From contig CAIWHK010000006.1 of the NCBI GenBank assembly GCA_903912525.1, positions 124,001-188,000 of the forward strand: 64,000 nucleotides of DNA, written 5' to 3'. A program made the position numbers and the translations under genes. The stretch is from an uncultured bacterium. Its GTDB lineage: Bacteria > Krumholzibacteriota > Krumholzibacteriia > LZORAL124-64-63. This document shows positions 33,298 through 49,664 of the stretch, piece after piece (position 1 is the first letter of the stretch; every line of letters begins with the position of its first letter). The notes under the pieces are model-generated. The model searched no databases. It saw nothing but the letters and a program-made list of their open reading frames with translations, and had not been told where the DNA came from.

Positions 33298-33340
33298 GTT
33301 TCCGGTCCTTTGCTGCTCCCGCCGTGCGGGAGGTGAATCC

Positions 33341-35401
33341 CTAGAACTGGTCGTCGACCAGGACGTCCAGCTGCACGGTGCCGCGCACCTCGAGGTAGTC
33401 CGTGCTGAGCACGCGGGCTGCCTGTCCGTTCGAGGACGGCAGCGTGGCCACGACCTTGGTGACCAGGCCGGGCCGGCCGAAGATCTGGGCCTGGGCGGCG
33501 GTCAGCGCGAACGTGGGTCGGCTGACGACGGCCTGGGTGACGATGTGTGTCGTCGGGTCGATCAGGGCCGCATCGATGACCAGGGGCCCGATCGTCAGCA
33601 GCGGCGCGGTGTCCAGCGTGTTCGCGTCCTGCCCCACCAGCACCACCAGCGACAGGGCCACGGGCAGGTGGTTGAGCACTTCCAGCTGCGCGCTGGCGCC
33701 CTGGGCGTGCGTCGAGATGTTGTCCTGCAGCCCGGTGTCGATGTCCAGCAGGCGCGGGTCGCTGTCCAGGCTGGCGCCGTCGATGATGACCTCGACCGGC
33801 GCCGAGATCCGCCAGCGCACGACAGCCTTGTCGTTCGGCCGGACGGTGCCGACGGCGCCGTTGCCGCCGAGGGTAACCTGGCCCAGCAGGGTGATGCGCT
33901 CGGGGAGGTTGTTCAGGAAGCCGACGATGCTGCTGTTGTTCTGGTCGAGCACGATCTCGGTCAGCGCCTTGCCTGGATCCTGGTTCAGCGCCTGCGCGAT
34001 CGACAGGTCCTGGACGTGCCCGCTGGCCGAGACGCCGCGCAGCGTCAGGTCCACCGTGCCGGGCAGCGACGCGGCCGTCTCCAACTCCAGTGTCAGGGTC
34101 GCGGCCGTCAGCGACAGGCCGTTGAGCTCGGCGGGCAGGTTGATGTTCTCGACCGTCGGGTCCATCACCACCACGGCCTCGGGGATCACGCCGGTCACGC
34201 TCGCGAAGGTGATCGTCGCGGCGCCGAGCGTGGCCGACAGGCCGTCGCCCGAATCCATCGTCACGGCGGCGCCGCTGCTGCCGGGCGACGTCACGCTGAC
34301 CGTCGCGTCCAGCGACGTCACGGAGGCGCCGCCGTCGGCCAGCGTGTAGCCGGCGAAGTTGACGGTGTGCGTTGCCGCGGCGTGGGCGGCCAGGCTGAAC
34401 TGCTCGACCAGCGGCTGTCCGGCCTGGTTGCGCAGGTCGGCCCAGGTCAGGACGGCGGTGCAGGGCACCGGCATGTCGTTGGTCACGCTCAGTTGGGCCG
34501 AACCGCTGCCCAGCACGGCCTCGGTCACTTCGTAGCCCGAAGGCAGGCCCGAACTGAATGTCGTTTCGAAGCCCTGAGCGCCGACCACGGCGGTGGCCGA
34601 AGACACCAGCAGGTCGGTGAACGTCGCTTCGATGTCCAGCGCCGCGCCGGCGTTGATCGTTACCGCCTGGTCGCCCGACCCCGCGGAGCCGCCGGCCAGC
34701 CGCACGCGCAGGCGGTCGGGCAGGACCGCGCCGGTCAGGTCGACCGTACGCGTTTGGCTGGTTCCGGCGGCGATCGATCCGAAAGTGAACGAGGCGAATT
34801 CGGCGCCGGACGGGCTCTCCAGGACCAGCACCAGCTGGTCGGGGCCGCTGGCGGCAGAGACTGCGACCGGCAGGCTGTTGGTTACCGTGACCTGCGCCGT
34901 CCCGGACGCGAGCCTGGCGGACTGGATCTCGGGCACGTCCTGGTCGGTGCTCGTCACCGCGACCGGGAACGGCGGCACGATCGTCGTCAGGCCGTTCGCC
35001 GCGGCGGCGGGGGCCCACACGTCGCTCAGGAGGAATCCGTACGAGAGGGGGCCGAAAGAGGCGAGCGAGAACTCGCCGAGGCCCTGGCTCATCGACTGCG
35101 CCGGCACATCGGCCGACAGGTCGAAGTCGAAGCTCAGCGTGTCCGGGTCGCCGTCGACCTGGAACAACAGGCTGCCGTCGCTGCCCGTCGCCAGGAAGTC
35201 CTCGCTGTTGAGGGCGTCGGCGACGTCCAGGCGCTCGACGCCCAGCGGCAACGTCAGCGACGTGTCGAACGTCGGCATTTCCGGCTTGTTGATGTCGCAA
35301 CCCGCGAGGACCGCGAGGGCGGCGACCAGCAGGAATGCCGCAGCGAAACGCGCGGCCCTTCCGCAGTCCCGGCTCCGGGTGATGTTCCAAGGCATCGACA
35401 T
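33341..35401 (-). CDS. Repeat-bearing surface lipoprotein of unknown function
   Basis: 686 residues from the ATG at 35401 (a second ATG at 35395 is also possible). The signal peptide ends in lipobox LAGC with Cys35. Asp at +2 is the inner-membrane retention signal in E. coli, though the rule may not hold here. The rest is beta-rich, Ser/Thr/Ala/Val-dominated and almost without Cys. The pattern A-x-(L/V)-x-V-x-N-x-(L/M)-P-V recurs at about 168, 301 and 570, with a weaker copy near 435, spaced about 134 residues apart. This suggests four tandem Ig-like modules. It forms a pair with the barrel protein downstream. No known family is recognised beyond that. Confidence 0.8.
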   Translation of the reverse strand: MSMPWNITRSRDCGRAARFAAAFLLVAALAVLAGCDINKPEMPTFDTSLTLPLGVERLDVADALNSEDFLATGSDGSLLFQVDGDPDTLSFDFDLSADVPAQSMSQGLGEFSLASFGPLSYGFLLSDVWAPAAAANGLTTIVPPFPVAVTSTDQDVPEIQSARLASGTAQVTVTNSLPVAVSAASGPDQLVLVLESPSGAEFASFTFGSIAAGTSQTRTVDLTGAVLPDRLRVRLAGGSAGSGDQAVTINAGAALDIEATFTDLLVSSATAVVGAQGFETTFSSGLPSGYEVTEAVLGSGSAQLSVTNDMPVPCTAVLTWADLRNQAGQPLVEQFSLAAHAAATHTVNFAGYTLADGGASVTSLDATVSVTSPGSSGAAVTMDSGDGLSATLGAATITFASVTGVIPEAVVVMDPTVENINLPAELNGLSLTAATLTLELETAASLPGTVDLTLRGVSASGHVQDLSIAQALNQDPGKALTEIVLDQNNSSIVGFLNNLPERITLLGQVTLGGNGAVGTVRPNDKAVVRWRISAPVEVIIDGASLDSDPRLLDIDTGLQDNISTHAQGASAQLEVLNHLPVALSLVVLVGQDANTLDTAPLLTIGPLVIDAALIDPTTHIVTQAVVSRPTFALTAAQAQIFGRPGLVTKVVATLPSSNGQAARVLSTDYLEVRGTVQLDVLVDDQF

Positions 35402-35520
35402 GGTGAACCCCTCGGTTGTTCGTTCGTGGTTCCCGGTGCCCACCTGCCCATGGACACGGGAATGCCGGGCACGTGCTGAAAGAACCGTACCGGCGCGCCG
35501 GGGGATCGCCGCGGGCCCGC

Positions 35521-35676: not shown

Positions 35677-35706
35677 TTGACCAGTGCGCCGGGCCGTTCC
35701 TACTAT
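35677..35706 (+). promoter_or_regulatory. Sigma-70 promoter of the ABC importer operon
   Basis: TTGACC (35677-35682), 18 bases, TACTAT (35701-35706), five and four of six consensus matches. The ATG is at 35741, with AAGGA just before it. Confidence 0.6.
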
Positions 35707-35740
35707 CAGCCTTCATTGGTCCCGGCCGCGAAGGACGGAC

Positions 35741-36721
35741 ATGATCCCCTGGCTTGCGCGACGCCTGCTGTGGTCCCTGCTGATGCTCGTCCTGCTGGCG
35801 ACGATCGTGTTCGCCGTCGTGCGTCTGGCGCCGGGTGACCCGGTGGCAGCGGCTGCTTCCGAATCCGCCGAGGCGCGCGACCTCCAGTTGCAGCGCGAGC
35901 GCCTGGGCCTCGATCGTCCGCTCATCGACCAGTACCTGAGGTGGGTGGCGCAGTGCGCGCGCGGCGACTGGGGGCAGAGTTGGCGGCAGCAGCGGCCGGT
36001 GGCCGACATCATCGGCGAAGCCCTCGGGCCCACGCTGCTGCTGACGACCACTGCCTACGCGCTGCAACTGGCGCTGGCGATCGCCGCCGCCGTGCTGATG
36101 GCGGCGTATCGCGGCCGCGCGTCCGACCATCTGGTCGGCGGCATCGGGCTCGTGTTCCAGTCGATGCCCGGCTACTGGCTGGGGCTGATGCTCATCCTGG
36201 TCTTCGGCCGCGGACTCGGCTGGCTTCCGTCCGGCGGCTTCGGCTCGCCGGGCGCGGCCGGGCTGTCCGCCGGCGCGCGCCTGGTCGACCTTGCGCGTCA
36301 CCTGGCGCTGCCTGTCGCCACGCTCGCGCTCGGCTCGTTCATGGTGACGGCCCGGTATCTGCGCGCCGCGCTGGACGAGGCCCTGGCGCAGGACTTCATC
36401 CTGGCCGCCCGCGCGCGCGGCGTGCCGCACCGGCGCCTGGTGTGGCGACACGCCATGCCGCACGCGCTGGTGCCCATGGTGACGCTGGCCGGTCTGCACC
36501 TGCCGCAACTGGTGGGCGGTGCGGTGGTGGTCGAGACGGTTTTCGGCTGGCCGGGCCTCGGGCGCATCGCCGTCGAGGCGATCGCCGCCCGCGACTACCC
36601 GGTGATCATGGCCACGACGCTGCTGGCGGCGGTGCTCGTCACGCTCGGCTCGCTGCTGGCTGACATCGGCGCCCGTCGCGCCGACCCGCGCATCCGTCTG
36701 TCCGGCCCGGAGACGCCGTGA
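35741..36721 (+). CDS. Dipeptide/nickel-type ABC transporter permease (DppB/OppB family)
   Basis: 326 residues and six membrane helices. It begins MIPWLARRLLWSLLMLVLL, followed by the periplasmic LAPGDPVAAA typical of OppB/DppB. The EAA coupling loop is in the region ALAQDFILAARARGVPHRRL, which contacts the ATPases. TVFGWPGLGRIAVEAI near the end is also family-typical. It pairs with the next permease to form the channel for peptides or similar solutes across the inner membrane. The start was chosen as the ATG behind AAGGA; the frame also stays open upstream. It overlaps the next gene by four bases. Confidence 0.93.
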   Translation: MIPWLARRLLWSLLMLVLLATIVFAVVRLAPGDPVAAAASESAEARDLQLQRERLGLDRPLIDQYLRWVAQCARGDWGQSWRQQRPVADIIGEALGPTLLLTTTAYALQLALAIAAAVLMAAYRGRASDHLVGGIGLVFQSMPGYWLGLMLILVFGRGLGWLPSGGFGSPGAAGLSAGARLVDLARHLALPVATLALGSFMVTARYLRAALDEALAQDFILAARARGVPHRRLVWRHAMPHALVPMVTLAGLHLPQLVGGAVVVETVFGWPGLGRIAVEAIAARDYPVIMATTLLAAVLVTLGSLLADIGARRADPRIRLSGPETP

Positions 36722-37593
36722 ACGCGCCCGCCCTCGTGTCAGCGACGTCCACACGGCGTCCGCACCGGCCGGGGACCGGCGCCCTGCGCGCGGGTGCGGC
36801 CATGCTCGCCCTGGCGACGCTGGCCGCGCTGTTGGCCCCGGTCCTGATGCCCGGCGACCCGGCGGCGCTGGGTCCGGCCGCCGCGCGACTGCTGCCACCG
36901 TCGCCGGCGCATCCCCTGGGCACCGACCAGCTCAGCCGCGACATCCTGGCGCGCGTGTTGCATGGTAGCCGCGTGTCGCTGCTGGCCGGCTGGCTGAGCG
37001 CGATGGTGGCCGTGACGCTCGGCGTCGCGGTGGGGCTGGCCGCCGGCGGCGGGCCCCGCTGGCTGGACCGGCTCCTGATGACCGCCACCGATGCCTGCCT
37101 GGCCTTCCCGCGCGTGTTCCTGGTCCTGCTGCTCGTCTCGTTGACCAGGCCGAGTCTGGTCCTGACGATGCTCGTCATCGGCCTGACCGGCTGGATGGGT
37201 GTCGCCCGGCTCGTGCGCGCCGAGACGCTCGGTCTGCGCGAGCGCGAGTTCGTCGCCGCCGCCCGCGGGCTGGGCCTTTCGCGCCTGAGTGTCGGCCTGC
37301 GCCACATCCTGCCTTCGCTGTGGCCGACGATCATCGTTGCCGCCACGTTGCGCGTGGGCTCGGCCATCCTCACCGAGTCGTTCCTGTCGTTCCTCGGCCT
37401 CGGCGCGCAGGAGCCCGCGGTCAGCTGGGGGGCGATGATCCAGGCTGGGCGTCCCGTGCTGCTGGAGGCGTGGTGGGTGGCGACGTTCCCGGGCCTGGCG
37501 CTGGCGTTCGTGGTCGTCGGCTGCAACCTGCTGGGCGACGGCCTGCGGGGGCGGCTTGACCCGCGCGGAGGGGCAGAGGTCCGCCATGAGTGA
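36718..37593 (+). CDS. Dipeptide/nickel-type ABC transporter permease (DppC/OppC family)
   Basis: 291 residues from GTG 36718. The first helix (about residues 20-45) is followed by HPLGTDQLSRDILARVLHGS, the OppC/DppC hallmark. The EAA loop is REREFVAAARGLGLSRLSVG and the distal motif is ESFLSFLGLGAQEPAVSWGA. It forms a heterodimer with the preceding permease. Overlaps at both ends (4 and 8 bases) indicate translational coupling. Confidence 0.93.
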   Translation: MNAPALVSATSTRRPHRPGTGALRAGAAMLALATLAALLAPVLMPGDPAALGPAAARLLPPSPAHPLGTDQLSRDILARVLHGSRVSLLAGWLSAMVAVTLGVAVGLAAGGGPRWLDRLLMTATDACLAFPRVFLVLLLVSLTRPSLVLTMLVIGLTGWMGVARLVRAETLGLREREFVAAARGLGLSRLSVGLRHILPSLWPTIIVAATLRVGSAILTESFLSFLGLGAQEPAVSWGAMIQAGRPVLLEAWWVATFPGLALAFVVVGCNLLGDGLRGRLDPRGGAEVRHE

Positions 37594-39295
37594 GTTGCTG
37601 CGGTGTGAAGGCCTCGCGCTCGGGTTCACGGCGGCGTCCGCGCCGCTGCTGCACGGCGTGGACCTGGTCATCGGCGAGGGCGAGGCGGTTGCGCTGTCCG
37701 GGCCCTCGGGCTGCGGCAAGACGCTGCTGGCTCGCGCGCTGCTCGGGTTGCTGCCGTCAGGCGCGTGGTGCGACGGTCGCCTGCTGTGGGAAGGCCGCGA
37801 CCCGACAACATCCGCGGACGGCTGGAAGCGGTTGCGCGGCGGCGGCATCAGCTGGCTGCCGCAGGATCCGCTCGGCGGGCTCAACCCCCTGCTGCGCGTC
37901 GGTGAGCAGGTGGCGGAGTCCGCGCGCCTGGCCGGCGCCGCCTCGCGCGCGGAGGCCCGCGGCATTGCCGCCGGTCTGCTTGCCGAAATGCAATTGCCCG
38001 ACCCCGAGCGCCTGCTGGACGCCTGGCCCCACCAGTTGAGCGGCGGCATGCGCCAGCGCGCGCTGCTGGCGGCCGTGCTGGCGCGGCGACCGCGCCTGCT
38101 GCTGGCCGACGAGCCGACTTCGAGCCTCGACGCCCCTTTGCAGCGCGAACTGCTGGCCCTGCTCGACCGCGCCCGGCGCGCGCGCGGCCTGGCTCTCCTG
38201 TTCATCACCCATGACCGCGACCTGGCGCCGCTGGTGGCGGATCGGTGCCTGGAGATCCGCGGCGGGCGGCTCGTCGCGCTGTCGGCGGTGGCGACGCCAA
38301 ACAGCGACCCGGTCCCAGCCGCCCGCGCGCCGGGGATCGGCGAGCCGGCGCTGGCGGCTGCCGGTCTGGAGGTGCGGTACCCGGGCGCGCGAGCGTTCGC
38401 GGTGGCTGGCGTGGACCTCGAACTGCACGCGGGCCGGGCGGTCGGGCTGGTGGGCGGGTCGGGCTCGGGCAAGTCGAGCCTCGCGCGCGCGCTGGCCGGA
38501 CACCTCGTTCCGGGTGCGGGCACGGTGACGGTCGCGGGCCTGCCGCAGGCGCACGGCGATTCGGCGCCGGCGCGCGCGGCGCGACGACGCGTTCAGATGC
38601 TCTTCCAGGACGCAGGCGCCTCACTGGATCCCCGACAGCGCGTGGGGGATGCACTCACCGAGGCGGCGGCCGCCGCCGGCGCGGCCACCGAGTCAGTCGC
38701 CGTGCGCCTGCTGGCCGAGGTGGGGCTGCCCGCCGAACTCGCTGCGCGCCATCCCCACGCCTTGTCCGGCGGTCAACGCCAGCGCGTCGCGCTCGCGCGC
38801 TGCCTTGCCGCGGGTCCGGCGGTGCTGATCGCCGACGAGCCGACCAGTGCGCTCGACGCCGAGGCGCGTGACCGCATCCTGACGCTGCTGGGAACCGTGA
38901 TGGTGTCGCGCGGGTTAGCTGTTCTTCTGGTCACGCACGACGTCGACACAGCCTCCGCTTTCTGTGACGAGCTGCTGGTGATGCACAGCGGCCGCATCGT
39001 CGAGCGCGCGCCGGCCGCGCCGCTCGCGCTCCTGCGCCATCCGCACTCGCGGCTGTTGCTCGCCTGCCGCCCTGCGGCGCTGGCAGCCCTGCCGCAGTGG
39101 AGCGAGGGACCGGTGCGGGCCCGTGTCGAAGTGGGGGGAGCGCCCTCGTCCGGCTGCCCCCTCGCAGGGGGTTGCCCGCTCCAGAACGCGCCCTGCTTCA
39201 AGGAGTTGCCGCCCCTGGCGCCGCTGGCCCCGGGGCACTGGCTGCGATGCCCGCCGGCGTCCGAACTCCCTTCCCCACAATTTATTGACACGTAA
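37586..39295 (+). CDS. Fused dual ATPase of a peptide-type ABC importer (DppD-DppF fusion)
   Basis: 569 residues with two complete ABC domains. The first has Walker A GPSGCGKTLL (about 39) and signature HQLSGGMRQRALLAAVLARR. The second has [16 protein letters not shown] (about 291) and [19 protein letters not shown]. The C-terminus has spaced cysteines (GCPLAGGCPLQNAPCF and LRCPP), the oligo/HPY tail that in related proteins can hold an iron-sulfur cluster. DppD and DppF are usually separate genes; fused forms such as GsiA and YejF exist. No periplasmic substrate-binding protein is encoded next to the set. The start overlaps the permease gene by eight bases and GGAGGGGCAGAGG lies just upstream. 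The last codons contain the -35 box of the next promoter. Confidence 0.92.
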   Translation: MSELLRCEGLALGFTAASAPLLHGVDLVIGEGEAVALSGPSGCGKTLLARALLGLLPSGAWCDGRLLWEGRDPTTSADGWKRLRGGGISWLPQDPLGGLNPLLRVGEQVAESARLAGAASRAEARGIAAGLLAEMQLPDPERLLDAWPHQLSGGMRQRALLAAVLARRPRLLLADEPTSSLDAPLQRELLALLDRARRARGLALLFITHDRDLAPLVADRCLEIRGGRLVALSAVATPNSDPVPAARAPGIGEPALAAAGLEVRYPGARAFAVAGVDLELHAGRAVGLVGGSGSGKSSLARALAGHLVPGAGTVTVAGLPQAHGDSAPARAARRRVQMLFQDAGASLDPRQRVGDALTEAAAAAGAATESVAVRLLAEVGLPAELAARHPHALSGGQRQRVALARCLAAGPAVLIADEPTSALDAEARDRILTLLGTVMVSRGLAVLLVTHDVDTASAFCDELLVMHSGRIVERAPAAPLALLRHPHSRLLLACRPAALAALPQWSEGPVRARVEVGGAPSSGCPLAGGCPLQNAPCFKELPPLAPLAPGHWLRCPPASELPSPQFIDT

Positions 39296-39313
39296 TAAGC
39301 CAATCTCTATATT
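39285..39313 (+). promoter_or_regulatory. Near-consensus sigma-70 promoter for the TonB-receptor operon
   Basis: TTGACA (39285-39290, perfect), 17 bases, TATATT (39308-39313, five of six). It is the best vegetative promoter in the window. The -35 lies inside the last four codons of the upstream ATPase gene. Transcription would begin near 39320, giving a leader of about 190 bases. Confidence 0.85.
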
Positions 39314-39379
39314 CAGCCACCAGTTGCGGCACGGCGCCCGGACCCCACGTCCCCGGTGTTCCAAAGTGCCCCGAGGACC

Positions 39380-39473
39380 GGCGGAAACGCCCCAAATCAG
39401 CAAGGCACCCCACGCTGCCCGGCTAAGGTCCAGTGCGAAATACAGACCAGATCGCGGGTTCCCCCCGGAACCC
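39380..39473 (+). promoter_or_regulatory. Structured 5' leader of the TonB-receptor mRNA
   Basis: Two hairpins are visible in the leader: GGCG-GAAA-CGCC (39380-39391, a GNRA tetraloop) and GGGTTCC/GGAACCC (39456-39462 with 39467-39473, four-base C loop). No known riboswitch consensus (cobalamin, TPP, c-di-GMP) was matched. A long structured leader before an outer-membrane receptor is compatible with ligand- or sRNA-mediated control. Confidence 0.35.
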
Positions 39474-39513
39474 AGAGCTAGCCGGATTCGTCCCCACGGA
39501 AAGGAGCCGCCGT

Positions 39514-42507
39514 ATGCTCCGGCGTCACCGGATCCACCGGGTTTTGCCCCTTCTGGTATTGATGCTGATCACGGTGGCGATGGCGGGTAGCGCCCTGGCC
39601 CAGACGGGCTCCATTCGGGGCGTGATCCGCGACAGGGAATCCAACGAGCTTCTGGACTACGCAAACGTGCTGCTGGTCGGCTCGACGCGCGGAACGATGT
39701 CGCTCGGTGGCGGCACGTTCATGTTCAGCAACCTCGAACCCGGCAGCTACACTGTCCGGGTCCTGTACCTCGGTTATGCCCCCGTCGACAAGACCGTCTC
39801 CGTCGCGCCCGGTGGGGTGCAGACGCTGGCGTTCGACCTCGAAGCGGTGGTCGTGCAGACGCTCGATGACATCGACGTCACAGCCGAAGAGTACATGGTC
39901 GACATCAAGAGCGCGGTGACCGAACAGGTGGTCAGTTCCGAGTCGTTCGAGAAGTACGCGATCGACTCGGTCGAGGACGCGATCTCGAAGCAGGCCGGCG
40001 TCGTCTACAAGGCGGGCGAACTGTACGTCCGCGGCGGCCGCTCCGGCGAAGTCTCGATGCAGATGGACGGCGTGGCCGTCGACAATCCTTTGGGCACCGG
40101 CTCGATGGAAGTCTCGACGCTGGCGGTCGAGAGCATGGCCATCGCCACCGGCGGTCTCGACGCCAAGTTCGGCAACGCGCTGTCCGGCGTCATCAACATC
40201 ACGACGAAGGAAGGCGGCAAGAAGTTCGGCGGCGGCGTCCGCTTCCTGACCGACGACTTCGGCCGCCAGGACAAGACCTTCACGAACTACGACCGCCTGG
40301 AGTACGGCTTCGGCGGCCCGTCGCCGTTCAAGGGCCTGACCTACTACCTGGCCGGCGACCTGCAGTTCACCGACACCGAGAACACCTCGGTCGCGCACCG
40401 GCCCGAGTACAAGCTCAACCTGGGCGACACCACGTTGTTCAAGTTCCGCCGCCGCCAGTTCAACCAGGCCAAGGGCTCGGCCAAGCTGGCGTGGACCTTG
40501 GACCAGGACAAGAAGGTCAGCGCCGAGTACTCATACACCACGACCCTGGGTGAGGGCTACGCGCCCAACTGGAGCGTCGAGGGCTATGCTCGCCGCGTGC
40601 TGTACATGACGGAAGTCATCTACCGCAGCAGCTTCGGCGACTGGCTGGCCACGGGACGGAACATCCCGGTCTACTACGGCCCGTGGTACGACAACATGCT
40701 GACCACGGCGCGCACCGCGATGGTGGTCGACACGCGCAACAGCAGCGAGCGCCGCGTGGCCCTGCCGATCCTCGAGGTCCGCGGCGCGACCGACAACCAG
40801 CTCTACACGGTCGTCGCGCAGGCCCAGTTCGACGGGTTCCGTTACCCGTACGGCGCCTTCTCGACGGTCGCCGAGGACAGTTCGTACGCGAAATTCAACG
40901 CCGCGAACCAGCTGACCCAGAACAAGGCGATCGGCCAGGTGGCCAAGGTCGTCTGGCACCACAACCTCGACCAGAGCACGTTCTACGCGCTGCGCCTGGG
41001 CCTGGTGGCCTTCGACAGTCGCATCGACGTTCAGGGCAAGGACCCGTGGGAATACAACCACGGCGGCATCTGGTCGCCCGGCCTGTTCCTCGGGCAGACC
41101 CGCATCTACCAGGGCGGTTCGTCGTACTACTCCGACCCGCTGAGCCCGTACTATGTGACCAACAGCGACGTGGCGTTCTACTCCGAGGAATACAGCCGCA
41201 CCTACAGCCTGGGCGGCGAGATTGTCTCCAGCCGCTGGAAGGGCCACATGGCCGAGATGGGCCTGGGCGTGCGCTACAACGACCTGCAGCGCTATGCCCT
41301 CAACACCCCGGCGGTCATGCGCCAGAGCCAGGCCGGCGAGTGGACGCTGGGTGGCAATCGCAACGTGTTCCATACCTACAACCCCGAAGCCTACTGGTAC
41401 ATGCAGGACCGGTGGGAATACGAGGGCATGGTCGTCAGCTACGGCCTGCGGTACGACATGTTCTCGCCGGGCTCGGCGGCGGCCATCGAGCTGACCAACG
41501 ATTCGGTCAACGCCAACGTGATCAAGTACAAGACCGCGTTCCAGCCCCGCCTGGGATTCTCGTTCCCGATCACCGAGCGTGACGGATTCAGCTTCCACTA
41601 CGGCCGGTTCGTGCAGTTCCCGGACCGCCAGTACCTGTTCGCCTCGCAGGACCCGGTGGGCAACGCCGGCACCCTGGGCAACCCGAACCTGGAGCCGATG
41701 ACGACGGTGCAGTACTCGTCGGGCATCAAGCACCAGTTCAACGACTTCATCGCCGGCCAGTTCTCGCTGTACAGCAAGGACATGTACGACCTGATCGCCG
41801 CCACCCAGGTGACGGACGAGGCAACCGGCCAGACGCTGGCGCGCTACATCAACAAGGCGTACGCGTCGGCGCGCGGCATCGAACTCTCGCTGAACAAGCG
41901 GTACAGCCAGAACTACGAGTTCAACATGAGCTACACCTACTCGTTCGCCGACGGTGTGGCTTCGGACACTGAATTCGGCTCGAACCCCGAGGGGCTGCAG
42001 TACCTGCCTAACCAGGAACTGCCGCTCGACTGGGACCAGCGCCACACGATCAACGTGCAGTTCCTGCTGGCCGAGCCGGGCACCTGGTCCTCGTCGTTCT
42101 CGTTCTCGTACGGCAGCGGCATGCCGTGGACGCCGTTCGACCGCTTCGCCAAGCGCCAGGACCCCATGCTGGAGAACAGCGAGCGCCTGCCCTCGACCTA
42201 CTCGCTGGACATCCAGCTCGAACGCAACGTGAACCTGTACGGCAAGCGCCTGTCGCTGCAGTTGCAGGCGTACAACCTGCTGAACCAGGATGTCGTCGTC
42301 GCCCAGGGCGGTGCCGGCATCGCGCCGGGTATGATCAACGGCGCCCAAAGCCTGGGCATCGGCCACCTGACGGAGACCGGCAAGTACGGCGCGGCCCTGT
42401 TGCAGGACGCGAACGGCGACGGCGTCAACGAGTACATCCCGATCGTGGACCCGCGGACCTTCGGTGAGCACCGGCTGTTCCGCCTGGCGATCGGTTACTA
42501 TTTCTAG
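39514..42507 (+). CDS. TonB-dependent outer-membrane receptor with carboxypeptidase-like N-terminal domain
   Basis: 997 residues. The start was chosen as the ATG behind GGAAAGGAG (39498-39506). The signal peptide is LLVLMLITVAMAGSALA. A CarboxypepD-regulatory-like beta domain follows (GSIRGVIRDRESNELLDYAN, about 31-110). The plug domain contains SKQAGVVYKAGELYVRGGRS and AVESMAIATGGLDAKFGNAL, then GVINITTKEGGKKFGGGVRF. A long beta-barrel ends in RLFRLAIGYYF with a terminal Phe. Barrel strands contain many Tyr and Trp residues. It should take up a large ligand at the outer membrane using TonB-ExbB-ExbD energy. The receptor is first in an operon with a secreted protein and a PorV homologue. Ligand unknown; SusC-like glycan use is possible, but no SusD follows. 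Confidence 0.92.
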   Translation: MLRRHRIHRVLPLLVLMLITVAMAGSALAQTGSIRGVIRDRESNELLDYANVLLVGSTRGTMSLGGGTFMFSNLEPGSYTVRVLYLGYAPVDKTVSVAPGGVQTLAFDLEAVVVQTLDDIDVTAEEYMVDIKSAVTEQVVSSESFEKYAIDSVEDAISKQAGVVYKAGELYVRGGRSGEVSMQMDGVAVDNPLGTGSMEVSTLAVESMAIATGGLDAKFGNALSGVINITTKEGGKKFGGGVRFLTDDFGRQDKTFTNYDRLEYGFGGPSPFKGLTYYLAGDLQFTDTENTSVAHRPEYKLNLGDTTLFKFRRRQFNQAKGSAKLAWTLDQDKKVSAEYSYTTTLGEGYAPNWSVEGYARRVLYMTEVIYRSSFGDWLATGRNIPVYYGPWYDNMLTTARTAMVVDTRNSSERRVALPILEVRGATDNQLYTVVAQAQFDGFRYPYGAFSTVAEDSSYAKFNAANQLTQNKAIGQVAKVVWHHNLDQSTFYALRLGLVAFDSRIDVQGKDPWEYNHGGIWSPGLFLGQTRIYQGGSSYYSDPLSPYYVTNSDVAFYSEEYSRTYSLGGEIVSSRWKGHMAEMGLGVRYNDLQRYALNTPAVMRQSQAGEWTLGGNRNVFHTYNPEAYWYMQDRWEYEGMVVSYGLRYDMFSPGSAAAIELTNDSVNANVIKYKTAFQPRLGFSFPITERDGFSFHYGRFVQFPDRQYLFASQDPVGNAGTLGNPNLEPMTTVQYSSGIKHQFNDFIAGQFSLYSKDMYDLIAATQVTDEATGQTLARYINKAYASARGIELSLNKRYSQNYEFNMSYTYSFADGVASDTEFGSNPEGLQYLPNQELPLDWDQRHTINVQFLLAEPGTWSSSFSFSYGSGMPWTPFDRFAKRQDPMLENSERLPSTYSLDIQLERNVNLYGKRLSLQLQAYNLLNQDVVVAQGGAGIAPGMINGAQSLGIGHLTETGKYGAALLQDANGDGVNEYIPIVDPRTFGEHRLFRLAIGYYF

Positions 42508-42551
42508 GATCGGGAGCGACCGCGCCGCGGAAGGCCGCGGCCTCGGAAAGG

Positions 42552-45404
42552 ATGGCAATGATCGCGAACCTCAAGTGCCCGCAGCAGCGGCGGTGGACGG
42601 CGGCAGCGTCGTCGGTCGTAGGGCTCCTGCTGGTGTTTGCCCTGACGGCCCCGGCGCTGGCGTTCAAGGACATCCCGAACCCGGTGCTCGACGCGGGGTA
42701 CAACCCGAACGGCATCTTCATCCTCGACGGTTCCTATGTCATGAACGTCGGCGAGGTGCAGATCAACATCACGAACTGGGGCCTGATCGGGTCGATGTAT
42801 TCATCCAATCGACCGTGGTCGGACGCACCGTCGTGCCAGTGGCCCGCCGGTTCGGGTAATGAGTACCTGTGGGGCGCAGGTCTCTGGGTGGGTGGCGTCG
42901 TGCTCGGGGAACGACTCGTGTCCACCGGGGGCTTCGGCAGCGAGATCTATCCGTTGGACGACATCGAAGCCACGATCTATGAAGCCGTCGACGGGCGCCT
43001 GGTACGTCCGGGGGGCAATCCGGAGGCCAGTGGCAAGCGGGCCCCGATGAACGGCAATGACGACGATGAGGACGGGCGGATCGACGAGGAAATCCTGAAC
43101 GGTTACGACGATGACGATGACGGGCTGATCGACGAGGATTTCGCCCAGATCGGCAACCAGATGTTCGTTCTGACGAACTACGACAACACCCGTCGCGCCC
43201 AGGAAGCCTACCCGGACCACACGCCGATGAACCTGCAGATCGTCCAGACGTCGTTCCAGTGGGAGAACGACCTGGTCGACGACTTCGTCGGCTTCGACTA
43301 CAAGATCACCAACGTCGGCGTCACTGACGTCAACAAGGTGTATATCGGCTTCTTCGCCGACAGTGACATCGGCCCGCGCGGCGCGAGCGGCACAGCGGAA
43401 GATGACATGTCCGGTTCGTGGCCCGAGACCAAGGGCGAGCCGGGCCTGGTGCGCGCGTCGGACGGCCAGTTCGTGCCGATCCAGATCGGTTACATGTATG
43501 ACGCTTCGGAGACCGACCTCATCGACGGCTACTTCGGCATCGTGTTCCTGGGGCACAATGTCGATCCCGCCGGCATCAAGGCGCCGCCGACCGTCGGTAT
43601 GCGTACGTTCCAGTCCTTTGCCAGCGCCGCGAGCTTCGAGCAGGGCGGCGACCCCAGCAACGACGACGAAGCCTACCAGTTGCTGAGCGCCGTGCGCGAC
43701 GACTGGGACAACAACACGCCGGTGGGCAAACAGGCCGATATCCGATTCCTCGTGTCCGCCGGACCGTTCTCGATTCTGGGGCCCGGCGAGAGCCTGTCCT
43801 TCCAGGTCGGCATGGTCATGGGCCCGGGCCTCGGCAACGAGGATGGCGCGCCCGGCCTGCTTGCCAATTGCGCCGAGGCGTGGCTCACGTATTCGGGCAT
43901 CTGGACCAATGAGATCACCCAGGTCGTCACCCGCGCCGGCACGACGCTCGATCCCGGCATCGGCGGTCGCGAGACCATGCTGTGCCGCGAAGACTTCGAG
44001 CCCTCGGTCTTCGACAACTTCCGCCCCGATTTCATGGACACTTCCTGCGTCAACGCGGAGTGGGTCCTGGGGCAGGTGGCGTTGACCGATAACGACCTTT
44101 TCGACTACGAGATCGGCGACGAGACGAAGGTCTGCGCCATGTTCAACATGGACAACTGCTTCGAGTGCGCCCGCCAGCTCGGCCATGCCTGCACGCCGCA
44201 GGACTTCATCGAAGGCCTGTGGACGTGCAACGACCTCGAGTCGACGAACAACATCGCCTGCACCGGCGTGGACGGCAACGAGACCCAGATCCACTGGCTG
44301 GTCGGCATGGCGCCGCCGCCGCCGGGCCTGCGGCTGTGGCCGACCGACAGCCGCGTCCATGTATTCTGGGACGACCTCAGCGAGGTCACTGAGGACATCC
44401 GGCTGCGGGTGGTGGACTTCGAATCCTACCGCATCTGGCGCGCCGACAACTGGGACCGCCCGTTCGGCTCGTCGGTCCTCAACGGCCCCGAGTCGACGCT
44501 GTGGCAGATGGTCGCCGAATACGACCTCGTGAACACCTATGTGTCCAGTCGCACCGTGGGCGTCACCACGCAGCTGGACACCCTGCCGTTGGGCGCGAAC
44601 ACGGGTCTCGGGGGCATTGCGTACCGCCCCCGCATCCTGGACAACCCGCAGTTCGCCGGCCTGGGTGAGGCCATGCAGGCGGTCATCGACGCGGATCCGG
44701 AGGGCCTGCTGCGGTCACGGCCGATCCTGCGCGGCGCGGACGGCCTCCCGATCGCGGCCTACGCGGGCCTGATCCCCTGGGAGACCTATCCCGTGGCGCT
44801 GGACACGTTCTTTGCCGTCGCCTCGCGCGCGGCAGACCCTGGTAACGGCGTGACCGCCAAGCACGGGACGCATTACTACGAGTACGTGGACCAGGACATC
44901 CACAACGGGTTCCTGTACTTCTACTCGGTCACGGCCACGGATCATGCCTTGGCTCCGACCGGCAGCGCGATCACCCTTCCGGTCGGCCCCGGGCTGGTTG
45001 GCGACCCCGGCTCGTCGTTCGACAACACGACGCCGGGCGCGACGGCCCAGACCGCCGAGGAGCGGGAGCGGTTCGGCGTGAACATCTACGTCTATCCGAA
45101 CCCGGCGACACGCGATGCCCTGGCCGAGTACCAGCAGATGAACCCGAACGGGGACGACCCGACGGGTGTCAGGGTGACGTTTACCAACCTGCCTGAGGCT
45201 CGCAACACGATCAAGATCTACACGATCAGCGGCGACCTGGTGCAGACGCTGGATCAGGATGGCCTCTCGGGCGTGGGCTACACCAGTTGGAACCTGATGA
45301 GTCGCAACGGCCAGGAGATCGTCAGCGGTGTGTACCTGTATTCGGTGGAGTCCGACGACAACCGGTTCGATCGGTTCGTCGGCAAGTTCGTGGTGGTCAG
45401 GTAA
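42552..45404 (+). CDS. Large secreted protein with Asp-rich calcium-type repeats and FlgD/T9SS-like C-terminal domain
   Basis: 950 residues. The signal peptide is SVVGLLLVFALTAPALA. Asp-rich repeats at about 165-200 (NGNDDDEDGRIDEE, YDDDDDGLIDEDF) look like thrombospondin-3/EF-hand calcium sites. A Cys-rich patch around 530-575 (VCAMFNMDNCFECARQLGHA) implies disulfides outside the cytoplasm. The last ~105 residues begin VNIYVYPNPATRDA and contain TIKIYTISGDLVQTLD and VSGVYLYSVES, the pattern of FlgD Ig-like/type IX sorting domains that direct proteins to the cell surface. It sits between a TonB receptor and a PorV homologue. It is probably a surface protein of the same system; enzymatic activity is not evident. 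Confidence 0.8.
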   Translation: MAMIANLKCPQQRRWTAAASSVVGLLLVFALTAPALAFKDIPNPVLDAGYNPNGIFILDGSYVMNVGEVQINITNWGLIGSMYSSNRPWSDAPSCQWPAGSGNEYLWGAGLWVGGVVLGERLVSTGGFGSEIYPLDDIEATIYEAVDGRLVRPGGNPEASGKRAPMNGNDDDEDGRIDEEILNGYDDDDDGLIDEDFAQIGNQMFVLTNYDNTRRAQEAYPDHTPMNLQIVQTSFQWENDLVDDFVGFDYKITNVGVTDVNKVYIGFFADSDIGPRGASGTAEDDMSGSWPETKGEPGLVRASDGQFVPIQIGYMYDASETDLIDGYFGIVFLGHNVDPAGIKAPPTVGMRTFQSFASAASFEQGGDPSNDDEAYQLLSAVRDDWDNNTPVGKQADIRFLVSAGPFSILGPGESLSFQVGMVMGPGLGNEDGAPGLLANCAEAWLTYSGIWTNEITQVVTRAGTTLDPGIGGRETMLCREDFEPSVFDNFRPDFMDTSCVNAEWVLGQVALTDNDLFDYEIGDETKVCAMFNMDNCFECARQLGHACTPQDFIEGLWTCNDLESTNNIACTGVDGNETQIHWLVGMAPPPPGLRLWPTDSRVHVFWDDLSEVTEDIRLRVVDFESYRIWRADNWDRPFGSSVLNGPESTLWQMVAEYDLVNTYVSSRTVGVTTQLDTLPLGANTGLGGIAYRPRILDNPQFAGLGEAMQAVIDADPEGLLRSRPILRGADGLPIAAYAGLIPWETYPVALDTFFAVASRAADPGNGVTAKHGTHYYEYVDQDIHNGFLYFYSVTATDHALAPTGSAITLPVGPGLVGDPGSSFDNTTPGATAQTAEERERFGVNIYVYPNPATRDALAEYQQMNPNGDDPTGVRVTFTNLPEARNTIKIYTISGDLVQTLDQDGLSGVGYTSWNLMSRNGQEIVSGVYLYSVESDDNRFDRFVGKFVVVR

Positions 45405-45443
45405 AGACCGGCTCTAGGGGCAGATCGAGTCAACTCCGTCGTT

Positions 45444-45471
45444 GGACGGAAGCGTCCGTCGCGGGACGGAC
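45444..45471 (+). promoter_or_regulatory. Alternative hairpins before the PorV-like gene
   Basis: GTCCGTC (45454-45460) pairs with GACGGAC (45465-45471) around GCGG, ending three bases before the GGAGG ribosome-binding site. GGACG (45444-45448) can instead pair with CGTCC (45453-45457), which excludes the first stem. The arrangement could tune translation of the third gene of the operon. Confidence 0.35.
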
Positions 45472-45483
45472 ACGGAGGTTTCC

Positions 45484-46416
45484 ATGAAGCGCATCGCGAT
45501 ACTGACCGCCTTCCTGCTGGCCGCGCCGACGCTTGTTCACGGCGCCGGGTTCGCGAAGGTGGGCACCTTCGGGGGTCAGGAACTCAAGATCGGCGTGAGT
45601 GCCCGGGCCACGGCCATGGGCTCCGCGTTCGTCGGCATGGCCGACGACGCCTCGGCCGTGTTCTGGAATCCGGGTGGCCTGGTCAACGTGACCGGCAATG
45701 AAGTGTCGCTGAACCACGTGCAGTGGGCGGCGGACACGAAGCTGAGCACGGCGATCCTGGCCTTCAGCCCGCGGTCGATCCCGGGCACGCTGGCGTTTTC
45801 CCTGCGGTCGTTCTGGATGGATCCGCAGCTTGAGCGTTCGGCGTACCTGCCCGAGGGCACGGGTCGCACGTTCGACGCCGGCACCACGTCGCTGGGCCTG
45901 AGTTACTCGCGGTTCTTCACCGACAAGTTCTCGGCCGGCGCCACGGTGAACTACCTGCACATGGGCCTGGCCGAGTCCGCCGTCAACACCGGCGCCCTCG
46001 ACTTCGGCATCATGTACCGCATCGGGATCCGTGACCTGAAGCTCGGCATGGTCATCCAGAACCTGGGCGGCAAGTTCATGTTCGACGAGCGCGAGTCGAA
46101 GCTGCCGGTGACCTTCAAGGTCGGCCTCAGTGCGACGGCGTTCAAGACGACCCAGCAGAAGCTGGTCGGTGCCCTCGAGTTCGCGCATCCCGCGGACAAC
46201 CTGGAGCACGCGAACGTGGGCGCGGAGTACAGCCTCAACAAGCAGTTCTTCGCCCGCGCCGGCTACCACATCAACTACGACACCGACGGCCTGGCCTTCG
46301 GCTTCGGTGCGGCGCTTCCCACCGGCGCCAAGACCAAGCTGCAGGCCGACTACAGCGCCGTCGACATGGCCGCCCTCGGCTACGTCCATCGGTTCACGCT
46401 GTCGGTCACGTACTGA
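45484..46416 (+). CDS. PorV/PorQ-family outer-membrane protein
   Basis: 310 residues. ATG 45484 follows GGAGG at ideal spacing; the signal peptide is AILTAFLLAAPTLVHG. GVSARATAMGSAFVGMADDA and SAVFWNPGGLVNVTGNEVSL are the defining PorV/PorQ/UPF0164 motifs, followed by regular beta-strands and the C-terminal TLSVTY. In Bacteroidetes PorV carries type IX cargo to the attachment complex at the outer membrane. Here its gene directly follows a gene whose product has a sorting-like C-terminal domain. Core T9SS genes are not in the window, so a T9SS role is an inference. It is the last gene before a strong terminator. Confidence 0.88.
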   Translation: MKRIAILTAFLLAAPTLVHGAGFAKVGTFGGQELKIGVSARATAMGSAFVGMADDASAVFWNPGGLVNVTGNEVSLNHVQWAADTKLSTAILAFSPRSIPGTLAFSLRSFWMDPQLERSAYLPEGTGRTFDAGTTSLGLSYSRFFTDKFSAGATVNYLHMGLAESAVNTGALDFGIMYRIGIRDLKLGMVIQNLGGKFMFDERESKLPVTFKVGLSATAFKTTQQKLVGALEFAHPADNLEHANVGAEYSLNKQFFARAGYHINYDTDGLAFGFGAALPTGAKTKLQADYSAVDMAALGYVHRFTLSVTY

Positions 46417-46460
46417 TCGCTGCGCTTCGGCTGCCGGAAACCGGCCGAAACGACCTGCCC

Positions 46461-46495
46461 GCCGCCCCGCCGCACCTGCGGCGGGGCGGCTTTTT
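46461..46495 (+). terminator. Strong intrinsic terminator of the TonB-receptor operon
   Basis: GCCGCCCCGCCGCA (46461-46474) pairs perfectly with TGCGGCGGGGCGGC (46477-46490), 14 base pairs, followed at once by TTTTT (46491-46495). It is the clearest Rho-independent terminator in the window. Confidence 0.95.
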
Positions 46496-46601: not shown

Positions 46602-48239
46602 ATGTTCCACGCGGTGCGTCGAGTCTCCATTCTTCTGCTCATCGCCGTTGTCACGGCTGCGGCCCTGCCGTGCGCTTCGGTCGCGGCGCTCCTGCAGCCC
46701 CTGGACGGCCGCGGCAACTTCCACAGCTACGTGGATGTGGTCAACCGCTGGCGCGCGGGCGACCACCTTGACGTGGTGGCGCTGGTCTCGGTGGCCAACG
46801 GCGACCTGGCCACCCGGGACGAGGACGGCGACCTGGTGGCGCGCCTGCGGGTCGAGGTGACGATCACGGCGCCCGATGGCCGTGAGGTTACCCGGACGCG
46901 CAGCGTCCGTACCCAGGCCCTCGGGAAGCGGGATGCGGCATCGCGCACGCTGCGGCAGGTGTGCGGCGTGATCCTGCCGGACGTCCCGTTCCGCAGCGGA
47001 CGCATTTCCTGCACGGTCTACGACGTCAACCGGCGCCGCGAGGGGCTGCTCAACCAGATGCGCAGCAGCGAGGCGCGCAGCGAGGCGTTCGGGGAGTGGT
47101 ACGCCGATTCCGGCCCGCGCCCGGCCACCGGGCTGGCCTTGGACGACCCCATGTTCCTGGTGCACGCGCCGCTGGCGGCCTGGAACCCTGAGAGTGCGGC
47201 CGACCCTTCGGAGAGTGGTGGCCTTCTGGGCGACTATGTGCACCCGAGCCGGATCTACGGGATCGAGCAGGATCGCCTGCAGATGGTGATCCCCGTCTGG
47301 CCGCCCGCGGGCGGCGCCACGCGCCCGGAGGACCTGGCCGGATTGCGGCTGCAAGTGGTCAGCGCCGACGGTATCTATGCCCTGACCGATTCCATCCCGT
47401 TCGACCAGCGGGGCATCAGCGCCCTGGAGGCAGGGCGGCCCGCCTACCTGTTCTACGAACTGGACGTCAATCGCCTGCCTGCCGGCAGCTACCGGCTCAG
47501 CGCGGGCCCGTTGGGGGCGCAGGGGCGCGGCCTGCTCAGCGGGTTCTCCGTGGTCTGGGAGCTGGGCGCCCTTTCGCGCGAGCACGACCTGGTCCTCGGT
47601 GAAGGCTTCACCGTGTTCACCGGTGGGCAGCGCGAGCGCTTTCTCCAGGCGAGCCCGACCGACCAGCAGAGCATGCTCGACGAGTTCTGGCGCGCACTGA
47701 ACCCCGACCCGGGCAGCCTCGTCAACCCGGTGCAGATCGAGTTCCAGTACCGGATCGCCTATGTGCAGCAGTTCCTCGGCGGCTTCGGGCCCCAGGGTGC
47801 GCGGGACGGCCGGGGCGAGGTTTTCCTGCTGCTCGGCGCCGCGGACGAGGTCGAGCGGGAACCGGTGCCCTTGAACTACCGCGACCAGGACGATGCGCGG
47901 GTCAAGGTCTACGACCGGTTCACCCCGGACCGGCCAGGCTCGACCGCGAAGGGCGCGGCCCCCGAGGGGACCCAGGTCGTCAGCCCTTACGCGACCATCG
48001 GCGGCGTACCGCTGGTTTCGCCGGTGTCCCGGTCGGCGGAGCGCGACCGCACCGAAATGATGCACAAGGCGGGGCGCGACTACGGCTTCGAACTCTGGAA
48101 ATACGACAACGGCGGCAATCCCCTGTTTGCCAGCAAGTTGTCGGGCAAGGGCATGGGCCAGCGCTTCCTGTTCGTGGACGCCGATGGGACCGGCAACTAC
48201 CGGCTTGAATCGTCCAATATCGTCAACGGCGAGGAGTAG
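46602..48239 (+). CDS. Exported GWxTD-domain-related protein with degenerate motif
   Basis: 545 residues; signal peptide VSILLLIAVVTAAALPCASV. The middle-to-late part (about 355-415) follows the GWxTD family plan: RFLQASPTDQQSMLDEFWRA, then LNPDPGSL, then EFQYRIAYVQQFLGGF, then GRGEVFLLLGAADEVE. At the diagnostic GWxTD position the sequence reads GARDGRG, so the tryptophan and threonine are lost. GWxTD proteins are common exported proteins of FCB-group candidate phyla and Acidobacteria, of unknown biochemical role. The C-terminal ~80 residues are unlike the family core. The start was chosen at ATG 46602, where the signal peptide begins; an upstream in-frame ATG gives a poor N-terminus. It follows the operon terminator and lacks an obvious promoter. 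Confidence 0.75.
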   Translation: MFHAVRRVSILLLIAVVTAAALPCASVAALLQPLDGRGNFHSYVDVVNRWRAGDHLDVVALVSVANGDLATRDEDGDLVARLRVEVTITAPDGREVTRTRSVRTQALGKRDAASRTLRQVCGVILPDVPFRSGRISCTVYDVNRRREGLLNQMRSSEARSEAFGEWYADSGPRPATGLALDDPMFLVHAPLAAWNPESAADPSESGGLLGDYVHPSRIYGIEQDRLQMVIPVWPPAGGATRPEDLAGLRLQVVSADGIYALTDSIPFDQRGISALEAGRPAYLFYELDVNRLPAGSYRLSAGPLGAQGRGLLSGFSVVWELGALSREHDLVLGEGFTVFTGGQRERFLQASPTDQQSMLDEFWRALNPDPGSLVNPVQIEFQYRIAYVQQFLGGFGPQGARDGRGEVFLLLGAADEVEREPVPLNYRDQDDARVKVYDRFTPDRPGSTAKGAAPEGTQVVSPYATIGGVPLVSPVSRSAERDRTEMMHKAGRDYGFELWKYDNGGNPLFASKLSGKGMGQRFLFVDADGTGNYRLESSNIVNGEE

Positions 48240-48341
48240 CCGGCCCACAGGTAGGGGTGGGCGGCGCCCTCCGCCACGACCGGCGGGGCAATCGGCCCGG
48301 CGGCGAACCGCTTTTCAGGTCGCGGTTTGGGCGGTTGGGGT

Positions 48342-48371
48342 TTGACTTGAGTCCCTGCCTTCCACTAATTA
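48342..48371 (+). promoter_or_regulatory. Candidate sigma-70 promoter for the ExbB-like gene
   Basis: TTGACT (48342-48347), 18 bases, then the AT-rich TAATTA (48366-48371) in an otherwise GC-rich spacer. The -35 is good; the -10 register is uncertain by one or two bases. Confidence 0.5.
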
Positions 48372-48463
48372 TTTCGGGGGCGCGGAGCGCTGCCTGTCGG
48401 TATCCCACTGCCGGCGCCCGGCCCGCACCCGGGCCCAACCGAGCGGAAAGGAAGTCTCGCGCA

Positions 48464-49348
48464 ATGGCTCGTCAGGATTCGAGGACTCTCGCACTCCGTA
48501 TCCGGTGTCTGCTGGCCGTACTGGCTGCGACCCTGATGGTTTCCGCCGCGGTGGCCGCCCCGGCCGACCCCGCCGATCCGTTTGCCCTGGCTGAGAAATT
48601 CGCCAGGATCCAGGCGACGACCGACTCGCTGGGCTACGGCATCGCCGTGACCGACTCGTCGGACGAGGTGGCCAAGGTGGCGCCCCCGATGGGCGGCCTC
48701 ATGGGCATGGTCGATCGCTCCGCCTGGGGCGCGACGGCGCCGGGCCGCACCTGGGTCGCCGGTGGTCCGTTCATGTGGTGGATCCTGGCACTGGCCGTCT
48801 TCGGCCTCGTGGTCGTGGCCGAGCGCGCGTGGACCCTCAGCCGGGCGCGCGTCAGCACGCGCCGGGTGCTGGGCATCATCATGACGACGCTGCGCAACGA
48901 CGGCGTCCAGGCTGCCGGTGACGAGTGCCAGAAGGTGCGCGGTCCCGTGGCGGCCATCCTGTATTCCGGCCTGCAGAAGGCCGACCAGGGGCGCGACGAG
49001 GCGAGCCGCGCGATGAACACCGCCGGCACGATCGAGATGTCGTTCCTCGAGCGCGGCCTCGTGTATGTGTCGTCGGTGACGACGCTGGCGCCGCTGCTGG
49101 GCATCATCGGCAGCGTCTACGGCATGATCCAGTTGCTGGATGGCTTCGCCGCCGCCGAGCGCATCACGTCGGCCATGGTGGTCGCGGGCATTTCGAAATC
49201 CCTGGTCACGACGGCCTTCGGGTTCGCCGTCGCCATCCCCGCGTCGTTCGCCTACAACTACCTGGTCGGCATGATCGCCCGGCTGGTGGGCGACATGGAG
49301 GACTCGAGCAAGCAGCTGCTGGGCGAGCTGGACAAGCGGCGGAACTGA
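48464..49348 (+). CDS. ExbB/TolQ/MotA-type proton channel protein with exported N-terminal segment
   Basis: 294 residues. The ATG follows GGAAAGGAAG. A signal-like helix (CLLAVLAATLMVSAAVAAPA) and a ~70-residue hydrophilic stretch precede the family core. The core has helix WWILALAVFGLVVVAERAW, the cytoplasmic loop, and the two conserved helices with TLAPLLGIIGSVYGMIQLL and KSLVTTAFGFAVAIPASFAY. ExbB pentamers with ExbD couple proton flow to TonB or Tol partners. The usual exbD does not follow: the next gene is a TolC homologue after 316 bases. It could energise the TonB receptor at 39514 if exbD and tonB lie elsewhere. Confidence 0.88.
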   Translation: MARQDSRTLALRIRCLLAVLAATLMVSAAVAAPADPADPFALAEKFARIQATTDSLGYGIAVTDSSDEVAKVAPPMGGLMGMVDRSAWGATAPGRTWVAGGPFMWWILALAVFGLVVVAERAWTLSRARVSTRRVLGIIMTTLRNDGVQAAGDECQKVRGPVAAILYSGLQKADQGRDEASRAMNTAGTIEMSFLERGLVYVSSVTTLAPLLGIIGSVYGMIQLLDGFAAAERITSAMVVAGISKSLVTTAFGFAVAIPASFAYNYLVGMIARLVGDMEDSSKQLLGELDKRRN

Positions 49349-49375
49349 GCGCCCGACGCCGAGCGAAGGAATGGG

Positions 49376-49404
49376 ACCGGCCGCGCTGGCAAGGCGCGGC
49401 CGGT
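49376..49404 (+). terminator. Hairpin after the ExbB-like gene
   Basis: ACCGGCCGCG (49376-49385) and CGCGGCCGGT (49395-49404) form a perfect 10-bp stem with a 9-base loop. The following TCGTTATG is a poor T-run, so termination may be partial. Confidence 0.55.
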
Positions 49405-49562
49405 TCGTTATGTCTCCTGTTGCGCAGCGGCCCGGCCACTGCCGGTCGAGGGCCCGGGGGCCGGCCGCGGGCGGGCGCCGGGGCTCCCCGGGGCGGCGCA
49501 ACCTTTCCCGGTGGCCTGCGTCTATGGCTGGTCTGCCCCCGGCCGGTCGCCCGAAACCGGGT

Positions 49563-49592
49563 CTGGCAAACCGGATGCCCGGGTTCTATCAT
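49563..49592 (+). promoter_or_regulatory. Candidate promoter for the TolC-ATPase pair
   Basis: CTGGCA (49563-49568), 18 bases, TATCAT (49587-49592). The match is moderate, and the site is about 70 bases ahead of the ATG. Confidence 0.35.
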
Positions 49593-49664
49593 GAACAACG
49601 AGAAACGGATACCCGGCGGCCCGGCGTCTTTGGCCTGGCTGCGTCACAGAACGGGAGAGGGACC

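Follow-up and report, generated by a model that had tools for sequence, protein, structure and literature searches.

A conserved unit of a TonB-dependent receptor gene, a type IX secretion cargo gene, and a porV paralogue in Krumholzibacteriota

Transcription unit and its conservation

The locus described here raises the question of whether a TonB-dependent receptor, a 950-residue secreted protein with a C-terminal sorting domain, and a PorV/PorQ-family barrel, which are encoded by three consecutive genes, belong to one transcription unit and serve one function at the cell surface. The genes lie in the window, the stretch of 64,000 nucleotides that was analyzed (G000:C6:124001-188000), which comes from a Krumholzibacteriota metagenome-assembled genome (MAG) of 4.29 Mb in 72 contigs with a completeness of 97.75%. 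All three genes are on the plus strand and are enclosed by a promoter, TTGACA-N17-TATATT (39285..39313, +), which matches the consensus at 11 of 12 positions, and an intrinsic terminator (46461..46495, +) with a GC stem of 13 pairs, a 4-nucleotide loop, and a run of five T residues. The ribosome-binding sites in the sequence place the best start codons at 39514, 42552 (or 42558), and 45484.

Taken alone, the promoter is at chance level, with a single match in 10.5 kb against a mean of 0.8 in shuffled sequences. However, the element TTGACA/T-N17-TATATT/TACATT precedes the receptor gene at 36 of the 37 class loci with enough sequence, always with a spacer of 17, and is kept even in distant families whose flanking DNA differs. 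Because its position and spacer are preserved across the class, the promoter is accepted as genuine, and a lone chance match is rejected. About 20 of 38 relatives, chiefly members of the same family, have a GC hairpin with a T-run 3' of porV. The recurrence of the promoter, together with the hairpin after porV, therefore shows that the three-gene transcription unit is real and under selection. The order receptor-cargo-PorV was found at 38 class loci, with the cargo and PorV genes swapped in one, and it also recurs in other phyla, which bears out the search for synteny in relatives that a first-pass annotation of the DNA had proposed. The open reading frames and coordinates of that annotation, and its near-consensus promoter and T5 terminator around three genes, were confirmed, but the terminator stem has 13 pairs rather than 14. 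Its count of exactly three genes is correct for the transcription unit and not for the conserved neighborhood, which extends on both sides; the unit is thus not a self-contained operon but the middle of a class-wide cluster, with Opp genes upstream and GWxTD and Ton genes downstream.

The three products and the type IX secretion system

The first gene (39514..42507, +), whose ATG is preceded by a Shine-Dalgarno sequence, encodes a TonB-dependent receptor of 997 amino acids with a signal peptide. Its CarboxypepD_reg, Plug, and TonB barrel domains, identified with Pfam, give it the architecture of the Oar/SusC type, in agreement with its earlier description as an outer-membrane receptor. The N terminus and the start of the plug are conserved among 39 receptors, and a single-sequence search of the PDB with the receptor returned no match.

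The second gene (42552..45404, +) encodes the 950-residue protein, which is a cargo of the type IX secretion system (T9SS). It consists of a Sec signal peptide, a beta-rich N-terminal domain, a Cys-rich segment with conserved cysteines, a middle part that reads as Fn3-like, and a type A sorting domain (residues ~846-950). The signal peptide, with a basic start, a hydrophobic core, and an ALA-F site, was read by eye from the sequence. The N-terminal domain was modeled at a pLDDT of 92 and a pTM of 0.90. Tandem Asp-rich DxDxDG loops (residues 171-196; 43062..43139, +) have D, G, and E positions that are invariant in 70 sequences; the loops are unvarying over all cargo paralogues of the class and exceed most of the protein in conservation; the motif suggests that they bind calcium, and the earlier description of a secreted protein with Asp-rich repeats of the calcium type agrees with these features. 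The cargo is present in 38 of the 38 family genomes searched, including the one analyzed here, and its named relatives are nearly all MAGs labeled Candidatus Krumholzibacteriia/Krumholzibacteriota or "bacterium," with few under other labels. A profile search of the PDB with the cargo found no match, and the possibility that it is an enzyme was rejected, as no catalytic family was matched. Four tandem copies of the 950-residue protein family, with no adjoining receptor or porV gene, are carried by genome G007 (L077:6271-17834 and L133).

The C-terminal domain (CTD) of the cargo (45087..45404, +), with the motifs YPNP, SGVYLYSV, and GKFVVVR in that order, had been described as FlgD/T9SS-like, and the T9SS half of that description stands. 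It scores 25.9 bits against TIGR04183 in the genome search and 21.3 in a scan of the whole protein (cutoff, 23), it has seven strands in the predicted model, and Foldseek matches it to PorZ (5m11) with a probability of 1.00. These features agree with the seven-strand Ig-like fold of the type A sorting domains (TIGR04183/PF18962). The C-terminal region of PorZ matches the CTD in 24 of 24 cargo orthologues, whereas FlgD does so in 1 of 24; a generic FlgD domain was therefore rejected.

The third gene (45484..46416, +) encodes a PorV/PorQ-family barrel, a candidate shuttle for the cargo. The barrel scores 180.6 bits against the family model NF033709 (cutoff, 90) and 88.7 bits against the PorQ model, and in a profile match it aligns with the SprA-bound PorV of Flavobacterium johnsoniae (6h3i; E, 6e-11). 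Its score against the PorV equivalog NF033710 is 67 bits, below the cutoff of 250, as is that of the PorV encoded directly downstream of PorU at G000:C28, which is the best equivalog match of the genome (113 bits). In a tree, the operon PorVs of 25 loci grouped in a clade of their own (100/99), and the PorVs linked to PorU, taken from seven genomes, in a second (99/96), while the placement of some own-genome paralogues, which lie on long branches, is uncertain. The two separate and well-supported clades imply that both lineages predate the diversification of the class. Six PorV-family genes over the cutoff are present in the genome, so that the operon gene as its sole porV is rejected. The earlier assignment to PorV/PorQ is right at the level of the family, but the protein is a paralogue and not the canonical PorV, because the latter adjoins PorU elsewhere in the genome.

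The genome also encodes the core of the T9SS, for which the first-pass annotation had advised a search. SprA is a 2,278-residue frame at G000:C32 (492 bits), PorU lies at G000:C28 (464 bits; cutoff, 420), and about 120 type A sorting domains exceed the TIGR04183 cutoff. The circumstances that the same annotation had listed as speaking against its proposal (a lack of T9SS core genes, no recurrence of the gene order, and a CTD that matches only FlgD) were all found not to hold. PorP/SprF is not found over the cutoff in any of the 14 genomes searched, and the operon barrel scores 14.8 bits against the PorP/SprF model TIGR03519 (cutoff, 90.55); membership of the type B CTD/SprF class was thus rejected. 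The GldM and GldN models were silent in 13 and 18 genomes, respectively, but this silence cannot prove absence, because no control genome was matched, and GldK and GldL were outside the search. SprA and PorU were matched, with GldM and GldN silent under the same lack of a matching positive control, in G000, G001, G003, G009, G014, G015, G038, G040, G042, G045, G047, G050, and G059. The T9SS motor in these SprA- and PorU-positive genomes of the class may be diverged or replaced. In the congener G003, two PorU sortase genes, both over the family cutoff, stand in tandem (G003:C121:57837-66184). No account of a T9SS was found for Eisenbacteria in the literature searched, nor was one found in the Krumholzibacteriota paper.

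A tentative role in uptake and its alternatives

Pairs of a receptor and a surface protein are known as SusCD. The unit resembles SusCD/RagAB in that a TonB-dependent receptor with a CarboxypepD_reg domain is co-transcribed with a surface protein, and peptide or glycan uptake is possible. It differs in that SusD (PF07980) is absent from 13 of 13 class genomes, with the control genome, Bacteroides ihuae, positive, and in that the surface protein is a T9SS cargo rather than a lipoprotein, with a PorV of its own and with ExbBD-TonB and Opp genes nearby. SusCD membership was accordingly rejected. We propose tentatively, with slightly less than even confidence, that the three proteins form one assembly of the outer membrane and cell surface in which the T9SS cargo stands in for SusD at a TonB-powered receptor. 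The cargo would enter the periplasm by Sec and would be routed out by its type A sorting domain through the SprA translocon of the genome. The operon PorV paralogue may then collect it by its CTD and keep it on the cell surface next to the receptor. There, the beta-domains and calcium-type loops of the cargo would capture the ligand in place of the SusD lipoprotein. Import would be powered by ExbB/ExbD/TonB, encoded next to the unit in most relatives and elsewhere in the analyzed genome, and the adjacent Opp-type transporter could move the substrate, probably a peptide, over the inner membrane.

The links of the cargo to its shuttle and of the surface protein to the receptor are suggested by gene order, and comparable gene sets, in which the receptors and cargos differ, favor such a functional link. 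In the analyzed genome, locus L022 encodes a CTD protein, an unknown protein, a receptor, and a PorV, and L024 encodes a receptor, a CTD protein, and a PorV. In four genomes of other phyla, which are placed at the domain level only, the genes for the closest PorV relatives adjoin those for a CTD protein and a receptor with a CarboxypepD_reg domain, without Ton genes (L180, L181, L182, and L183, and twice in L188).

Several observations weigh against the proposed uptake assembly. The terminator separates the unit from the GWxTD and Ton genes in many genomes, and no gene for a substrate-binding protein was noticed next to those for OppBC. Many cargo paralogues are encoded alone or in tandem, at a distance from every porV and receptor gene, and a strict one-to-one pairing of cargo and PorV is therefore doubtful. 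A dedicated PorV is not required either, since Bacteroidota, F. johnsoniae among them, manage with a single PorV for all type A CTDs (PMC12618676). In addition, the N-terminal domain of the cargo shows weak Foldseek matches to beta-sandwich domains of GH94, GH116, and mutarotase-like proteins (TMq up to 0.34), and because these are weak, carbohydrate binding is taken as a lead only. Adjacent gene pairs of a cargo and its shuttle do have a precedent in type B CTD/SprF pairs (PMC12618676, PMC9143113). SprB-SprF of F. johnsoniae resembles the unit in that the barrel gene directly follows the cargo gene and a T9SS surface protein, there of type B, is held by its cognate barrel (PMC12618676, PMC9143113); here, in contrast, the barrel belongs to PorV/PorQ, the CTD is of type A, the unit includes a TonB-dependent receptor, and no PorP/SprF exceeds the cutoff in the genomes searched. 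The PorV-PorU attachment complex shares a PorV-family barrel, a type A CTD, and the presence of SprA and PorU in the genome, but here the PorV linked to PorU has its own gene and clade, whereas Bacteroidota use one PorV for all type A cargo (PMC12618676).

The same scattered paralogues bear on the first alternative, which is that the genes form a conserved, co-regulated outer-membrane island without a joint machine, the PorV paralogue serving a subclass of type A proteins and the cargo being structural or adhesive and making no contact with the receptor. This is rather unlikely. At L077, L122, L129, and L133, cargo paralogues are arrayed in tandem with neither porV nor a receptor gene nearby, and some 120 type A CTDs compared with six PorV-family proteins over the cutoff fit it well, whereas the retention of the three genes and their promoter over the class, and the similar sets in the genome itself and in other phyla, weigh against it.

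Export, not import, is the main rival to the proposed uptake assembly. An Oar-like receptor driven by ExbB-ExbD-ExbD-TonB would then help to secrete or position the cargo, either in place of the PorL/M motor or in addition to it. In Myxococcus xanthus, Oar and an ExbB/ExbD/ExbD/TonB set are required for the secretion of PopC (PMC6434023). The receptor of the unit has the same domains as Oar (PF13620, PF07715, and PF00593), and the gene set with ExbB, two ExbDs, and TonB is compatible with that system (PMC6434023); the cargo here differs in bearing a T9SS CTD and in having a PorV-family partner. The silence of the GldM and GldN models in 13 and 18 genomes fits this alternative as well, but those searches had no positive control. 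The Opp importer is conserved in the cluster, the known route of CTD cargo is SprA, and ExbD-ExbD-TonB is sometimes lost from the site, as in the window and L097; these points count against export, which is quite improbable. Its strongest form, in which the local ExbB-ExbD-ExbD-TonB acts through the receptor in place of PorL/M to power T9SS export of the cargo, so that one machine in Krumholzibacteriota, and perhaps in other phyla, would export the surface subunit and also use it for nutrient import, is very unlikely. It is likewise very improbable that the third gene encodes a FadL-like porin for small molecules, forming a second uptake channel, while the cargo uses the PorU-linked PorV: PorV lies within the FadL barrel superfamily (PMC9143113) and the operon barrel has weak Toluene_X/OMP matches, but its scores of 180.6, 88.7, and 67 bits for the PorV family, PorQ, and PorV compare with an E value of ~5e-5 for FadL/Toluene_X, its profile matches the SprA-bound PorV, and its gene consistently adjoins that of a CTD protein.

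Among the known T9SS shuttles, one PorV serves the type A cargos and several SprF/PorP proteins serve type B. Here, type A cargo is abundant, PorV has multiplied, and one of its copies is fixed throughout the phylum in an operon that also encodes a TonB-dependent receptor and a cargo. A pairing of this kind, in which gene order joins a type A cargo to a PorV paralogue and such a receptor, was not found described in the literature searched. If the proposed uptake assembly is correct, a T9SS cargo can form the surface part of an importer in the outer membrane, like the SusD lipoproteins in Bacteroidota. The locus also raises the question of what drives the T9SS in phyla without detected PorM/PorN.

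Neighboring genes and related loci

Among 77 loci from named genomes, the cluster in intact contigs reads OppB-OppC-OppDF, receptor, cargo, PorV, GWxTD, ExbB, ExbD, ExbD, and TonB, usually followed by an OEP efflux protein and a LolD/MacB-type ATPase. In the window, the OppB/OppC-type permeases of a peptide-type ABC transporter (35684..37593, +; Pfam BPD_transp_1), conserved upstream of the unit in the class, are followed by a fused OppD-OppF-type ATPase with two ABC_tran domains (37556..39295, +). Downstream of the unit lie the genes for a GWxTD-domain protein (46602..48239, +; TIGR04514; E, 1.1e-11) and an ExbB proton channel (48257..49348, +; PF01618), and these neighbors are also conserved. 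The congener L093 carries ExbD-ExbD-TonB between its ExbB and OEP genes, whereas the window (48257-49700) and the congener L097 do not. This gap is a recent local loss of energizer genes; further ExbD and TonB genes are present elsewhere in the analyzed genome.

Other barrel and CTD genes were noted in related settings. On the minus strand of the window (32011-35500), two genes diverge from oppB, one for a secreted, lipoprotein-like product and one for a DUF5723 (FadL/PorV-like) barrel. In a genome of another phylum, L182:4982-7852 encodes a subtilisin-like protease as the CTD protein near the receptor and PorV genes, and its type A sorting domain is a strong match (38.7 bits). Finally, L189:2172-8412 (G000:C72:50171-56412) encodes a second PorV-like protein with a C-terminal FlgD_ig domain, followed by a 1,113-residue TPR protein, ExbB, and two ExbDs; this set is possibly an alternative secretion-system motor, and the TPR protein might, as a guess, be SprE/PorW-like.

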